Shown here piece after piece: positions 5,068 to 18,966 of a DNA stretch of 18,966 bases. Source of the DNA: Bacteroidales bacterium (lineage in GTDB: Bacteria; Bacteroidota; Bacteroidia; Bacteroidales; UBA932). The notes under the pieces were generated by a model that saw only the letters and a list, made by a program, of their open reading frames with translations, did not search any database and was not told the DNA's origin. The stretch is from contig JAGAAF010000029.1 of NCBI GenBank assembly GCA_017615435.1, positions 1 to 18,966 on the forward strand, given 5' to 3'. Position numbers and translations under genes: made by a program. How positions within the stretch are numbered: position 1 is the first letter of the stretch; each line of letters opens with the position of its first letter.

Positions 5068-7254
5068 TTATTGTTCGAGTATCTCGCCGATGCGGGGATC
5101 GTCCTCGCGTGCCACGATAACGAAGCCGTTGCCATCTTCCTTAGCAATTCCGGCAGGGGAGATGAGAACTGTCTCGCGAAGTTTGCGGCTGTCCACGCCG
5201 TTCTCCCTGATGAGGTGAAGCCTTACCTGGGAGACTCGCCTTACGCCGAGGTTGTAGGCCTTGACAGTGTCTTCGCTGTCCGGCGAAACAGGGGCGATAA
5301 GCAGATACTTGGCGCTGCCGTCGTAGGCCTTGATTTCCTTGGAGATCTTGTCCAGCTGCTTGCGGGCGCCGTAGTTGACCCACGCTGCGTTCTCGGGGAA
5401 CACGACATAGATCAGAGTGCTTTCCGGCTCGACGGGGACCTTGACGACCACGGTGTCGGTCTGGACGACAGGGTCCTTCTCCACCACGACGGTATCAACC
5501 TGCACGATCGGATCTTTCTCAATGACTACGGTATCAACCTGGACGACAGGGTCTTTTTCAATAACGACGGTATCTATCTGCACGACAGGGTCTTTCTCGA
5601 TAACGACTGTGTCAACCTGAATGATCGGGTCCTTTTCTACAACCACGGTGTCCGTCTGAACCCTCACCACTTCTTTGACCACTTCGCGGTCGCGGTAGCG
5701 GATCTCGATTTCAGGCTCGGACTGCACGAACACGGTGTCCTTCACGATGACGGGCTCCTTGTCGCGGTAAACGGTCTGGATCTGAACCTCCGGATCGGAG
5801 GCCACGAAAACGGTATCCTTCACGATGACGGGCTCTTTGTTCACATAGACTGTCCTGACCATAATTTCAGGCTCGGACTGCAGGAAGACTGTGTCTTTCT
5901 GAACCTGTATCTGAACCTCCGGTTCGGACTGGAGGAAGACGGTATCTTTGACAACTTTTACCTGAACTTCCGGCTCGAGCTCAAGGAAGACGGTGTCTTT
6001 CTGAACTTTCACCACTTCGCGGTCGCGATAGACGGTGCGGACCTCGATTTCGGGCTCCGACTGGACAAAGACGGTATCTACCAGGACGATAGGCTCCTTG
6101 TCGCGGTAAACGGTCTGGATCTGAACTTCGGGGTCGGTCGCCACAAAAACTGTGTCCCTGAGCACGATGGGCTCCTTGTTCACATAGACCGTCCTGACCA
6201 TAACTTCGGGCTCGGAGTGGACGAATACGGTGTCGGTCTGAACCTTGACCTGCACCTCGGGTTCCGAGAGCACGTACACGGTGTCCACCTGAACAACGGG
6301 CTCGGGGAAGACCGCGTCAGTCGCAGTGGAACTCACGCTGTCCGCATAAACCGTCTTGACCAGAATCTCGGGAAGAGATTTGATGTACACGGTGTCTGCC
6401 TTGATGAAGACGGTGTCTGCTTTTGCCGCACCTGAACCGACCTCCACTACGTCATAGATGGTAAGGGTGTCCACCTGGTTGACCTTGAGGATGACGGTGT
6501 CGCGTACTATCTTCTCGACCTCCTGGGTCTCTTTGACCACGAGGGTGTCGGTCCTGTACTTAACCTTTACGTTGCCCTTTTCTTTTGCGAGTTCTTTCTC
6601 CAGCTCGGCGATGTCGTTTTTATATGACTGGCTGGGATCTTTTGCGTAGACCCTGCCTTTGCCGATGGCTATCCTCATGCCGAGATTGGCTTCGGGATGG
6701 AGATTATGGTAGCTCAGGTGATATGTGTTGACGCCGGCGCGCAGATACAGCCTGAGGCGCCTGTCCACCTGGAACGAAAAGTCCATACCGGCAGTAATGA
6801 CGGGGCGTATGTAATTGCGCCAGTCGCGAATGCTGGTTATGGGAGTGGTGTTCATGTTGTAGATGAGCTCGCCTCCAAGATAAGAACCTATGTGGAAGGG
6901 CGCCCTGGCGCCGACTTCTCCGCCTACCGCAAGATTGGTCCAATCCATAAGGCCCGTGAACCTTAGTCCTGCGTAATAGGGGCTTGTCTTGAAGAAAGCA
7001 TCGGACCTGGAGTCAAGCGAACCTCTCATTGCATATCCCCTGAGGCTTACTGCAAAGCCCATCTGGGGCATAAACCAGCAACCGTATTCAAGTTGGGCCT
7101 CACCGCCCATCGTATAGAAGTCGGGAGAGAAGGGGAGGCCGCCGCCAATGAGAATGTACGACTTCTCACCTAAAACGGTATCCACGTCCTTCTCGGCGAA
7201 GATGGGGCCGGATGCCAGGCAGCACAGCAGTGCGATTAGAATAGTCTTTTTCAC
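5068..7254 (-). CDS. Large valine-rich repeat outer-membrane-associated protein with degenerate OmpA-like C-terminus, 728 aa
   Basis: Function is unknown. From a GTG start the N-terminus is a clean signal peptide (KKTILIALLCCLASG, cleavage likely after PIFA near residue 20). About residues 25-215 are rich in aromatic and Gly alternation like an outer-membrane beta-barrel. A short charged helix follows (NDIAELEKELAKEKG). About 230-590 is a long array of DTVFV-x-SEPEV-type and VDTVVIEKDP-type units. The last 115 residues resemble an OmpA-like peptidoglycan-binding domain (VVFPENA, YNLGVRRVSQVRLHL). The peptidoglycan-contacting Asp region is poorly conserved. An upstream ATG at 7296 is rejected because the -7 box (7287-7280) lies after it. 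An acyltransferase gene follows 12 bases downstream. The protein might span the periplasm; this is inference. Confidence 0.75.
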   Translation of the reverse strand: MKKTILIALLCCLASGPIFAEKDVDTVLGEKSYILIGGGLPFSPDFYTMGGEAQLEYGCWFMPQMGFAVSLRGYAMRGSLDSRSDAFFKTSPYYAGLRFTGLMDWTNLAVGGEVGARAPFHIGSYLGGELIYNMNTTPITSIRDWRNYIRPVITAGMDFSFQVDRRLRLYLRAGVNTYHLSYHNLHPEANLGMRIAIGKGRVYAKDPSQSYKNDIAELEKELAKEKGNVKVKYRTDTLVVKETQEVEKIVRDTVILKVNQVDTLTIYDVVEVGSGAAKADTVFIKADTVYIKSLPEILVKTVYADSVSSTATDAVFPEPVVQVDTVYVLSEPEVQVKVQTDTVFVHSEPEVMVRTVYVNKEPIVLRDTVFVATDPEVQIQTVYRDKEPIVLVDTVFVQSEPEIEVRTVYRDREVVKVQKDTVFLELEPEVQVKVVKDTVFLQSEPEVQIQVQKDTVFLQSEPEIMVRTVYVNKEPVIVKDTVFVASDPEVQIQTVYRDKEPVIVKDTVFVQSEPEIEIRYRDREVVKEVVRVQTDTVVVEKDPIIQVDTVVIEKDPVVQIDTVVIEKDPVVQVDTVVIEKDPIVQVDTVVVEKDPVVQTDTVVVKVPVEPESTLIYVVFPENAAWVNYGARKQLDKISKEIKAYDGSAKYLLIAPVSPDSEDTVKAYNLGVRRVSQVRLHLIRENGVDSRKLRETVLISPAGIAKEDGNGFVIVAREDDPRIGEILEQ
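5452..5646 (-). repeat. Tandem 39-bp repeat inside the valine-rich protein gene
   Basis: Five consecutive units begin at 5452, 5491, 5530, 5569 and 5608, each exactly 39 bases, with a partial sixth at 5647. They encode 13-residue units of the form VVQVDTVVIEKDP. Synonymous differences between units show the array is not freshly expanded. Confidence 0.9.
5695..6230 (-). repeat. Higher-order duplication (339-bp offset) inside the valine-rich protein gene
   Basis: A block of three units (SEPEIMVRTVYVNKEP, DPEVQIQTVYRDKEP, SEPEIEIR...) at about 5695-5890 recurs at about 6034-6229, offset by 339 bases (113 codons). A stretch of over 30 bases around 5755 and 6094 is identical. Each unit is about 25 residues and is built on the motif DTVFV-x-SxPE. 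Confidence 0.8.
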
Positions 7255-7279
7255 TTCTAAGTGATTTTGGTTCAGGATA

Positions 7280-7287
7280 CAAATATA
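7280..7287 (-). promoter_or_regulatory. -7 box of the repeat-protein operon
   Basis: The minus strand reads TATATTTG (7287-7280), a perfect TAnnTTTG. It sits 25 bases upstream of the GTG at 7254 and downstream of the ATG at 7296, which fixes the start. It is back to back with the box of the LysR-type gene. Confidence 0.55.
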
Positions 7288-7299
7288 TAAAATCATTCT

Positions 7300-17275: not shown

Positions 17276-17308
17276 TTGCATCTATTATATGTATTTATTG
17301 TATCTTTG
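17276..17308 (+). promoter_or_regulatory. Promoter of the lipoprotein/radical SAM operon
   Basis: TTG at 17276-17278 and TATCTTTG at 17301-17308 with a 22-base spacer. The start codon follows five bases after the box, so the mRNA should be leaderless. Confidence 0.55.
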
Positions 17309-17313
17309 GTGCT

Positions 17314-17889
17314 ATGAGAGCAAAGTATCTATTCATCTACATCGCAGCAGGGATTGCCTTTCTGGCCGTTTCCGCGTGGGTGTTCCTTACAAATGGGAAA
17401 AACGCAAAAGCCCTCAGGGCCAAGTACAAGCTGGGCGGGCTGCTTCTGACGTGCACCGCTATGCTGTCTGTCGCATCCTGCGGGCAGGTTCCTCATCCGG
17501 GAGTGACGTGCTACGATGTGGCCGTGACGTGCTACGATCCGGTGGTGAACGACTATGCGCATATCATTGCTTCGAGGCAAGATGAAAACGGGATCTGGCT
17601 CGTTTCGAAGGGAGACTCCCTGAAGGTACTGGTTGAATTTCCTACATACTCGAGGTACTCTGTGGTCATCAGCAAATTTGTCGACAGTAAAGCCGGAGAC
17701 CTTCTGCAGACAGAAACTTTCGATGCCCCAAGTCGAGATGACTTTGATCATTCCTTCGTGTTCGCCCCGGCTGATGAGACATACAGGGGAGCGGCGTTGG
17801 CGCAGATTTTCGGGAAAGACGAGCAGCTCGGAGAAGATATGGAATTGTCAATCAACTACAACATAATCATCACTGACGGTGAGAATTGA
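17314..17889 (+). CDS. Putative lipoprotein paired with a radical SAM enzyme; candidate modified substrate, 191 aa
   Basis: Function unknown. It has two hydrophobic segments: a membrane helix at about 5-26 and a lipobox-type segment LGGLLLTCTAMLSVASC at 40-56, separated by a basic loop (NGKNAKALRAKYK). Lipidation would be at Cys56. Right after it comes a tandem VTCYD motif (64-68 and 71-75, Cys66 and Cys73), then a beta-rich domain without further Cys. The ATG at 17314 is chosen over an upstream in-frame ATG at 17215 because the promoter lies between them. Its 3' end overlaps the radical SAM gene by 11 bases. The pairing recalls the TIGRFAMs rSAM/lipoprotein system (TIGR04133/TIGR04134, as I remember them), but this sequence may be a different family. 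The Cys-Tyr repeat is a natural target for the partner enzyme; that is inference. Confidence 0.7.
   Translation: MRAKYLFIYIAAGIAFLAVSAWVFLTNGKNAKALRAKYKLGGLLLTCTAMLSVASCGQVPHPGVTCYDVAVTCYDPVVNDYAHIIASRQDENGIWLVSKGDSLKVLVEFPTYSRYSVVISKFVDSKAGDLLQTETFDAPSRDDFDHSFVFAPADETYRGAALAQIFGKDEQLGEDMELSINYNIIITDGEN
17503..17538 (+). repeat. Direct 15-bp repeat coding for the VTCYD pair
   Basis: GTGACGTGCTACGAT occurs at 17503-17517 and again at 17524-17538 with no mismatch, a 21-base period. Exact identity at the DNA level, including third positions, points to recent duplication or conversion. Confidence 0.9.
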
Positions 17890-18877
17890 CAATCTCGTTT
17901 TCGAACTGACCGGAGCCTGCAACCAGTGTTGCAGGTTTTGTTATAACTATTGGAGAGACGGCAGCAGTCCTATCCCCGCGCCGGATCCTTCTCTCGCGCG
18001 GCGAACGCTCAAAAAGTTACTTTCGCAGGTTTCAGTCGGAACCATCTCCTTTTCAGGCGGCGAGCCTCTTCTGCTGAATAATGTCCACGACCTCGTGCTT
18101 CAGGCCAGGTTCAAGGGCTCTCGCGTGAATGTCCTAACCAACGGCACGCTTCTGACTGATGATGCCTTGCAGAATTTTGTAAGTCTTGGAGTAGACGCGA
18201 TTCAGATACCGCTTCTCAGTGCGGATGCATCCGTGCACGATTATCTGACAAATGTTCCCGGTTCGTGGGAAAAGGCTTCTGACGCGCTTGGACGTGCTTG
18301 CAAGGCCGGGATTGGAGTCGCGGTGCTAGTGATTACGAATGTCAACGCGCCCGGTGTTTCGGAGACGATTGACCTGATCCGCGACTGCGGCGTTCGCACC
18401 GTAATGGTGAATCGCTTCAATATAGGCGGGAACGGAATCAGGCACTGCAAGGAATTGGTGCTGGACAGGACGACTCTCGCAAAAGCATTTGCCGATGTCG
18501 AAGCATTTGCCGAGGCTCATCCGGAGATGCATTTTGTCAGCGGAGTTTGCACGCCTCTGTGTTATCTGGACACAAGACCCTATCCTCACGTCCGCTTCAC
18601 CAAGTGCAGCACAGACTTGAGCGGCAGGCCCATCACTCTGAATTACAACGGCGACGTGCGTTTCTGCAACCACTCTCCAAGAGTGCTTGGGAATATTTTT
18701 GACAGGCCTATTGGCGACATCCTCACCGACCCGGAAATCAATTCCTGGTACGCGCCCGTTCCAGATGAGTGCGGAAAATGCGTTCTGCTGGATCGCTGCG
18801 GCGGCGGTTGCCGCGCAGCCTCCGAGCAAGTCTACGGCACCTTCTCCGCCCAAGATCCCATCCTGAACACCCGCTAG
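17879..18877 (+). CDS. Radical SAM/SPASM domain enzyme (putative lipoprotein/peptide maturase), 332 aa
   Basis: The enzyme cleaves S-adenosylmethionine to start radical chemistry on a protein or peptide substrate. The [4Fe-4S] motif CX3CX2C is Cys14, Cys18, Cys21. SGGEP (59-63) and the barrel strands follow. The C-terminal SPASM region has C243-x14-G258-x4-C263, then C298-x2-C301-x5-C307-x3-C311. The last SPASM Cys, normally in a DPxC context, is absent: the protein ends DPILNTR. Two additional Cys at 224 and 228 could serve as ligands. The start is a GTG at 17879, 11 bases inside the lipoprotein gene, so translation is coupled. No ATG lies near the required N-terminus. A hairpin terminator follows the stop. 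The final 17 codons lie in the palindrome at the window end. Confidence 0.88.
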   Translation: MRIDNLVFELTGACNQCCRFCYNYWRDGSSPIPAPDPSLARRTLKKLLSQVSVGTISFSGGEPLLLNNVHDLVLQARFKGSRVNVLTNGTLLTDDALQNFVSLGVDAIQIPLLSADASVHDYLTNVPGSWEKASDALGRACKAGIGVAVLVITNVNAPGVSETIDLIRDCGVRTVMVNRFNIGGNGIRHCKELVLDRTTLAKAFADVEAFAEAHPEMHFVSGVCTPLCYLDTRPYPHVRFTKCSTDLSGRPITLNYNGDVRFCNHSPRVLGNIFDRPIGDILTDPEINSWYAPVPDECGKCVLLDRCGGGCRAASEQVYGTFSAQDPILNTR

Positions 18878-18966
18878 TACGAGAAAAGGCGCCAGCTGGC
18901 GCCTTTTCTCGTACTAGCGGGTGTTCAGGATGGGATCTTGGGCGGAGAAGGTGCCGTAGACTTGCT
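18825..18966. repeat. Perfect 142-bp palindrome at the window end (likely assembly fold-back)
   Basis: Bases 18896-18966 are the exact reverse complement of 18825-18895: arms of 71 bases with no spacer and no mismatch that I could find. The left arm includes the last 17 codons of the radical SAM gene, so the right arm is an antisense copy of it. The repeat runs to the very last base. Confidence 0.95.
18881..18910. terminator. Terminator hairpin after the radical SAM gene (partly in the fold-back)
   Basis: Four A, stem GGCGCC (18888-18893), AGCT, stem GGCGCC (18898-18903) and TTTT follow the TAG by about ten bases, the form of a bidirectional intrinsic terminator. Because the palindrome centre is inside it (18895/18896), the right half could be an artefact, so only the left half is certain. 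Confidence 0.5.

Follow-up and report, generated by a model that had tools for sequence, protein, structure and literature searches.

A two-gene system of Bacteroidales pairing a SPASM radical SAM enzyme with precursor lipoproteins that share a membrane leader and a Cys-Tyr site

Analysis of a stretch of 18,966 nucleotides from a Bacteroidales bacterium (hereafter the window), together with searches for relatives of two overlapping genes at its right-hand end, revealed that these genes constitute a real two-gene system of Bacteroidales, unnamed by the NCBIfam and Pfam models searched. Three elements are conserved throughout the system: a membrane leader, a Cys-Tyr pair (Cys-His at one locus), and an adjoining gene for a SPASM radical SAM enzyme. 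From its sequence features the system is probably RiPP-like, the SPASM enzyme modifying the Cys-Tyr of a precursor whose signal sequence doubles as leader.

The two genes had been singled out in a sequence-only reading of the window, and their overlap was confirmed to the base, with 11 bases (17879-17889) common to the open reading frames of the lipoprotein and the enzyme. The lipobox that this reading had reported was identified as VASC with Cys56, and the two exact VTCYD motifs seven residues apart were found as described (Table 1). These two copies, 7 residues from start to start, are encoded by a 21-nt direct repeat (17503-17523/17524-17544) of 81% identity. Upstream of the pair, the sequence TATCTTTG (17301-17308), which we take to be a Bacteroidetes-type -7 element (consensus TAnnTTTG), ends 5 nt before the lipoprotein ATG, and the resulting transcript would be nearly leaderless. 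As a shared promoter motif TAnnTTTG found no support, being located close to the start in just 2/51 loci beyond the window, and a scan for terminators and sigma-70 promoters gave results near chance. At the other end of the pair, two 71-nt arms, 100% complementary and without a spacer, span 18825-18966 and reach the exact end of the record. The core of this palindrome (18881-18910) is a short hairpin flanked by A and T runs, so that the assembly appears to have folded back on itself at a natural palindrome resembling a terminator; the enzyme stop codon (18875-18877) precedes the turn. Elsewhere in the window, a gene on the minus strand (5068-7296) codes for a 742-aa protein in which many near repeats of the type VDTVFVQSEPEIEVRTVYRDREP were seen by eye, flanked by an N-terminal part that resembles a barrel and an end resembling OmpA.

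Table 1. Features of the gene pair in the window, and features of related loci mentioned in the text
Feature	Position	Strand	Description or basis
Precursor lipoprotein gene	17314..17889	+	191 aa; open reading frame and homologue search
Radical SAM/SPASM enzyme gene	17879..18877	+	332 aa, GTG start; PF04055, PF13186
Membrane leader, residues 1-55	17314..17478	+	Conserved positions, hydropathy, leader identity above cargo identity
Predicted lipidation Cys56	17479..17481	+	Cys in 120/120 aligned (best 120 of 131)
First VTCYD, residues 64-68, subfamily-specific copy	17503..17517	+	Aligned in 11/120 (best 120 of 131)
Second VTCYD, residues 71-75, conserved Cys-Tyr site	17524..17538	+	Alignment (best 120 of 131)
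Variable cargo domain, residues 76-191	17539..17886	+	Without Pfam or NCBIfam match
CX3CX2C, Cys14/18/21	17918..17941	+	Invariant in 32/32 aligned enzymes
Auxiliary cluster region, Cys224, 228, 243, 263, 298, 301, 307, 311	18548..18811	+	Invariant, 32 enzymes
Shared clusters	L042:6157-10992, L048:7998-12811, L050:51-3743		TIGR04134-type lipoproteins and enzyme
Precursors without lipobox Cys	L021 first, L094 second, L097 first, L098 second, L109 fifth, L112 single, L117 first		

A scan of genome contigs yielded 51 loci for the lipoprotein, whose record titles name MAGs or uncultured Bacteroidales, Rikenellaceae, Alistipes, Tidjanibacter and similar organisms, many of them from ruminants; most of the loci studied here are MAG contigs. 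In 45 of the 51, a relative of the enzyme starts no more than 200 nt from the lipoprotein stop codon, the first possible start codon being taken as the enzyme start, so that overlaps are upper bounds. These 45 include one enzyme truncated to its last third (L034) and one enzyme piece cut by the contig end (L009). Among the six exceptions, the lipoprotein gene is itself cut by the contig end in three (L024, L038, and L041), and in L028 the enzyme gene lies immediately upstream, not downstream, of the lipoprotein gene. L005 codes for a lipoprotein without any enzyme in the 9.2 kb of DNA covered, which like the truncated enzyme of L034 counts against the pairing, and no enzyme was found in the DNA of locus L051. 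The lipoprotein of this last locus (L051:2798-3133) has the same leader and shows LYGP twice in place of CY; no such enzyme was detected nearby or genome-wide at E ≤ 1e-30, while TIGR04133 (see below) is present in that genome. On this one case, the motif may track the presence of the enzyme.

Co-occurrence was also determined by genome. Among 199 genomes of one family, the leader profile was found in seven, the enzyme in seven, and both in six. In the seventh leader genome (G107) a contig of 3,046 bases resembles the one of L009, whose 101-residue enzyme piece runs off the end, and in the seventh enzyme genome (G031) the precursor has another leader type. In the family of G003 (130 genomes), the leader was detected in 12, the enzyme in 11, and both in 11, the twelfth leader genome (G295) having its lipoprotein at a contig end. 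The adjacency and the co-occurrence supported the enzyme-substrate pairing that had been proposed from the window alone. The earlier remark that no peptidase or dedicated exporter is linked to the pair also held, since no third gene was conserved: beyond the pair, no gene cluster occurred in more than five of the 51 loci.

A protein search with the enzyme returned 885 homologues at E ≤ 1e-3. The window enzyme scored above the cut-off for both PF04055 (79.3 bits against 29.5, E 4.8e-22) and the SPASM model PF13186 (24.6 bits against 21.5), and Cys14, 18, 21, 224, 228, 243, 263, 298, 301, 307, and 311 were invariant in 32 aligned enzymes. With the pattern C-X14-G-X4-C plus CX2CX5CX3C, these results agreed with the initial description of a CX3CX2C and most of a SPASM motif. 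The textbook SPASM pattern contains seven Cys, including a last "gap-Cys"; this full pattern was not found in the 32 sequences, in which the last gap-Cys is missing and an extra upstream pair, Cys224 and Cys228, is invariant. Given that the curated PF13186 score is reached, we read this as a variant SPASM ligand set and not as an exclusion, and the invariant Cys would be enough for the SAM cluster plus auxiliary clusters. The enzyme frame opens 13 residues ahead of the first cluster Cys, and the protein probably has no N-terminal recognition domain. The best 25 of the 85 NCBIfam families matched by the enzyme were all far below cut-off, the top one being GeoRSP (90.5 against 400 bits), and the nearest solved chain was SkfB (6efn, E 3.6e-13). 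Membership of a defence system was considered and discarded: in padloc the enzyme matched viperin models over the radical SAM core, which says only "radical SAM protein".

For the lipoprotein, 131 homologues were retrieved by protein search at E ≤ 1e-3, and the best 120 of these 131, query included, were aligned. The best conserved region of the alignment is the leader, which in the window protein consists of a hydrophobic helix (residues ~5-26), a basic turn, GKNAKALRAKYKLGG (28-42), and a lipobox helix (43-55). Its hydropathy profile shows two peaks, at about 4-24 and 40-55, with the basic turn in between. In the mature part, Cys73 is present in 120/120 of these best 120 of 131 proteins, Tyr74 in 119/120 (the exception, P0024, has Cys), and position 75 is Asp or Glu in 120/120. 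Up to 45 residues from the lipobox, the same best 120 of 131 contain two CY in 46 cases, one in 73, and none in one (P0024, Cys-Cys); paired copies are most commonly 7 apart (29/46). The tandem VTCYD was rejected as an essential feature, since its first copy is aligned in 11/120, two CY occur in the 46/120 just mentioned, and the exact double VTCYDxxVTCYD was found in 5/120 (best 120 of 131). The invariant element is a single C-Y, and the tandem VTCYD is a subfamily trait. The region behind the motif is not conserved, being a small unnamed domain, TonB_C, or nothing. The window lipoprotein matched 0 NCBIfam families at E ≤ 10 and no Pfam family over cut-off, and a search of solved structures with the lipoprotein profile gave 0 matches at E ≤ 1. 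The proposal that the Cys-Tyr-Asp repeats are the modified site was thereby supported in one part, Cys-Tyr being the conserved part of the mature protein, and amended in two, the tandem being non-essential and the Asp, as seen in the wider family below, not obligatory. The motif stayed constant while the remainder of the protein varied or was absent, the opposite of the outcome that would have spoken against this site.

Conservation of leader and cargo was compared in 43 lipoprotein-enzyme pairs (903 comparisons). The mean identity of the enzymes was 0.60 and that of the leaders 0.58, while the cargo behind the motif averaged 0.27; leader identity exceeded cargo identity in 901 of the 903 comparisons. 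The leaders of the window and of L001 show 98% protein identity, yet only 18 of their 32 fourfold sites are identical, and in the enzyme genes of the same two loci 66/142 fourfold sites are identical. These diverged fourfold sites indicated that leader conservation reflects selection on the protein, and they ruled out recent DNA transfer or exchange as its cause. Signal sequences can be conserved per se, and this counts against the leader reading; in a control with other lipoproteins of the same loci, the signal peptide surpassed the rest in conservation in 12/31 pairs, a weak control because it is small and 26 of the 31 pairs are TIGR04134-type proteins.

The enzyme of G031 (locus L070) is 37% identical to that of the window and has an 81-aa precursor upstream, with another leader, V-S-C-Y, and no domain behind the motif. 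A protein search with this precursor found three proteins, itself included. With the L070 enzyme as query, 23 of 393 Bacteroidales genomes were positive at E ≤ 1e-40, giving 24 loci, 19 of which contain one to five precursors directly upstream of the enzyme gene; of the five others, two (L095, L111) run into a contig end, L114 has a broken gene, and L115 and L116 are without precursor. A phylum-level search with a type-B enzyme gave 2 of 395 genomes, including the centre genome G001, and a new locus with a precursor (L118). Leaving out L113, a close relative of the window, and adding L070 and L118, a wider set of 36 precursors from 20 loci was obtained through a filter that required C-[YH] or a leader-like stretch, so that a precursor with neither would be missed. 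Open reading frames judged by eye to be unrelated were removed (a methionine sulfoxide reductase at L113, an ORF tail at L097, and a coiled-coil ORF at L105), one L094 precursor and the precursor of L118 were taken from separate scans, and one precursor each at L100 and L106, cut by the locus end, was still counted.

In the 36 distant precursors, C-Y was found in 31 and C-H in five, all of the latter at L109, and the position after the Cys is solely Tyr or His. Position 3 of the motif can in these wider relatives also be A, K, I, V, L, M, T, S or F, and in the C-H mini-precursors of L109 it is R/K/A/M. Behind the motif, TonB_C (PF03544) was recognized over cut-off at L094, L103 (twice), L112, and L117, and L101 is alike by eye; small unnamed domains occur, for example, at L099, L104, and L110, and precursors without cargo at L037, L108, L070, and L109. 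The last of these loci contains five tandem genes (L109:333-1492) coding for C-H precursors of 75-81 aa ahead of one enzyme gene. L037, from the close group, codes for an 82-aa precursor that ends 15 residues past MCYDP and overlaps the start region of the enzyme gene. On the enzyme tree (41 rows), three changes are required to account for the cargo-less label, and the starred branches force three. Seven precursors keep C-[YH] and have no lipobox Cys (Table 1), which indicated that the conserved site is separable from the lipid anchor and that lipidation, assumed at the outset, is not obligatory. At L115 and L116 the radical SAM/SPASM enzymes share 27-28% identity with that of L070, and neither gene is accompanied by a precursor of this kind. 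They lie on a long branch in a poorly resolved part of the tree, where the outer limits of the system are therefore unsure, and perhaps represent a neighbouring family with another substrate; the placement of L112 is also unsure.

TIGR04133 and TIGR04134 are NCBIfam hypothetical equivalogs that likewise describe a SPASM radical SAM gene adjoining genes for small lipoproteins, and the sequence-only reading had named them among the profiles to be searched. The pair reached the cut-off of neither model. TIGR04133 (cut-off 425) was not among the best 25 of the 85 families found with the window enzyme, the 25th of which scored 47.3 bits, and the window lipoprotein gave no match to TIGR04134 (cut-off 39.8 bits) at E ≤ 10, nor did any of seven relatives (0/7). 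The window genes thus belong to neither family. TIGR04134-type lipoproteins resemble the window precursor in that a conserved Tyr follows the lipidation Cys at a short distance (YG-x-P type; L042, L048, and L050), whereas the window pair has its own enzyme family, a two-helix leader, C-[YH], and other cargo domains. The same three loci, all from Alistipes MAGs, have the pair in one cluster with further genes for small lipoproteins and another radical SAM gene (Table 1). The second enzyme of L042, the one locus for which the enzyme model was run, scored 580 bits with TIGR04133 against the cut-off of 425; eight of the 11 small lipoproteins of these clusters were tested, and 8/8 matched TIGR04134 at E ≤ 1.6e-5, three of them over cut-off. 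A TIGR04133 gene lies no more than 1.6 kb from the enzyme in 4/11 enzyme-bearing Rikenellaceae genomes, and TIGR04133 is present in 64/130 genomes of the family of G003 and in 11 of the 12 with the leader. The two rSAM/lipoprotein systems travel together at times. This clustering, the membrane leader, and the TonB_C and cargo-less versions had not been part of the initial description. In the literature searched, from which subscription journals were largely missing, nothing named TIGR04133 or "radical SAM-associated putative lipoprotein", and no title or abstract described the pair.

The lipoprotein had also been proposed to reach the cell surface. The Bacteroidetes export signal has been described as K-(D/E)2, Q-A-(D/E)2 or a stretch of acidic residues following the lipid Cys (PMC5080379). 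These published motifs were found in 0/120 lipoproteins (best 120 of 131), a count to be read with the proviso that other species may use other signals, and surface sorting through a known export signal was discarded, which leaves the label "surface" unsupported.

The hallmarks of RiPPs seen by sequence are a conserved leader, a conserved site, and a linked enzyme, and it is the conserved leader before a variable part, the two-residue site, the tandem precursors, and the coupled enzyme that make the anatomy RiPP-like. Other RiPP hallmarks are a modified core and a recognition element or PqqD-like partner, on which the enzyme start, 13 residues before CX3CX2C, and the lack of any third gene common to more than five of the 51 loci bear. 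Among the wider relatives, only Tyr or His follows the Cys and position 3 is variable, so that the reaction is likely to involve the Cys and the residue next to it. We infer from these patterns that the lipoprotein would be the substrate, with its Cys and/or Tyr/His modified, and that the leader would be recognized in the following order of events. The leader would start with a helix, either hydrophobic or amphipathic, continue with a basic turn whose last residues are K-x-K-x-(x)-G, and finish with the hydrophobic lipobox helix. The translationally coupled SPASM radical SAM enzyme would bind it in the cytoplasm or at the inner membrane, and would oxidatively modify the Cys-Tyr pair a few residues past the cleavage site, before or during entry of the precursor into the membrane. 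Lipidation and signal peptidase II would then remove the leader, and the product would follow a general export route; where the lipobox Cys is missing, removal would fall to a different signal peptidase. What remains would be a modified N-terminal segment, with a variable domain attached or, in cargo-less precursors, by itself. The basic turn would be on the side of the enzyme only if the first helix runs N-out, a proviso that we counted against this reading. For the bond itself, a thioether involving the Cys is our single likeliest guess, and a tentative one.

Parallels to this arrangement exist in known systems. Bufferin precursors have Sec signal peptides, which are reported, on preliminary evidence, to form part of what is recognized, and in about 16% of Buf2 the signal peptide is of the lipoprotein kind (PMC12452194). 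Bufferins and other MNIO-modified RiPPs are thus alike in having a signal peptide where the classical leader would be; they differ in using a multinuclear iron oxygenase with a partner protein and in having another Cys pattern, whereas here there is a radical SAM enzyme alone. PapB, which links Cys to Asp or Glu (PMC9413430), and SkfB, maturases of ranthipeptides and sactipeptides, share the radical SAM and SPASM fold with the window enzyme, but their substrates are short cytosolic peptides, while those proposed here are membrane-directed proteins. The window enzyme also resembles PqqE and the SPASM family in its CX3CX2C and most of the SPASM Cys pattern; unlike PqqE, it is without the final gap-Cys and has the extra invariant Cys224/228, and it scored 66.1 bits with the PqqE model against 381.

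Other readings of the pair have to be weighed against this one. The Asp or Glu found after Cys-Tyr in 120/120 close relatives (best 120 of 131) would suit a Cys-Asp/Glu thioether as in PapB-type ranthipeptides, a possibility implied by the sequence-only reading, with the Tyr as a mere spacer. We consider this unlikely, because position 3 varies across the wider set while Cys and Tyr/His remain, which makes a general Cys-Asp crosslink improbable, and because the PapB model NF047865 was absent from the best 25 of the 85 matches of the window enzyme. The lipoprotein might instead be a membrane anchor, chaperone or carrier of the enzyme, the true substrate being something else, and both the conserved long membrane segment and the strict gene pairing are in line with such a role. 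It is nonetheless rather unlikely: there are several tandem precursors per enzyme, up to five at L109, some precursors are just leader plus motif, and a mere anchor would need no C-[YH] motif.

We give little credence to the idea that C-[YH] stays unmodified, as a disulfide, metal or sorting motif, and that the enzyme acts elsewhere on the exported protein. The motif does lie near the mature N terminus, in the same region as Bacteroidetes sorting signals, and two-copy forms could pair through a disulfide; however, single-copy forms prevail (73/120, best 120 of 131), many mature parts have no partner Cys, the published export motifs are absent from the best 120 of 131 lipoproteins (0/120), and a sorting motif leaves the radical SAM gene unexplained. 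Finally, the common logic of the two rSAM/lipoprotein systems and their ability to share one cluster could suggest that the pair is an ordinary member of the TIGR04133/TIGR04134 system, but with the cut-off of neither model reached by the window pair, and with both systems present as separate genes in the same genomes, this is very improbable. The RiPP-like reading, with modification at Cys-Tyr, is the one we retain.

A wider meaning of the system can be put forward with considerable reserve. Leader and C-[YH] could together form a portable N-terminal module, in which an ordinary signal sequence takes the place of the leader and signal peptidase II that of the leader peptidase, and which yields a Cys-Tyr- or Cys-His-derived group, cofactor-like or crosslinked, either fixed to unrelated periplasmic domains (TonB_C, small beta-type) or released as short modified lipopeptides. 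If this is true, recognition would rely on the export signal itself, so that the system could do without a dedicated transporter or leader peptidase. A set of hypothetical proteins in MAGs and in the wider Bacteroidales would be explained, and two unexplained rSAM/lipoprotein systems would be linked, making the function of TIGR04133/TIGR04134 easier to approach. The pair would offer a compact two-gene test case with a site of only two residues, and the radical SAM chemistry of gut bacteria would extend beyond small secreted peptides to exported and lipid-anchored proteins.
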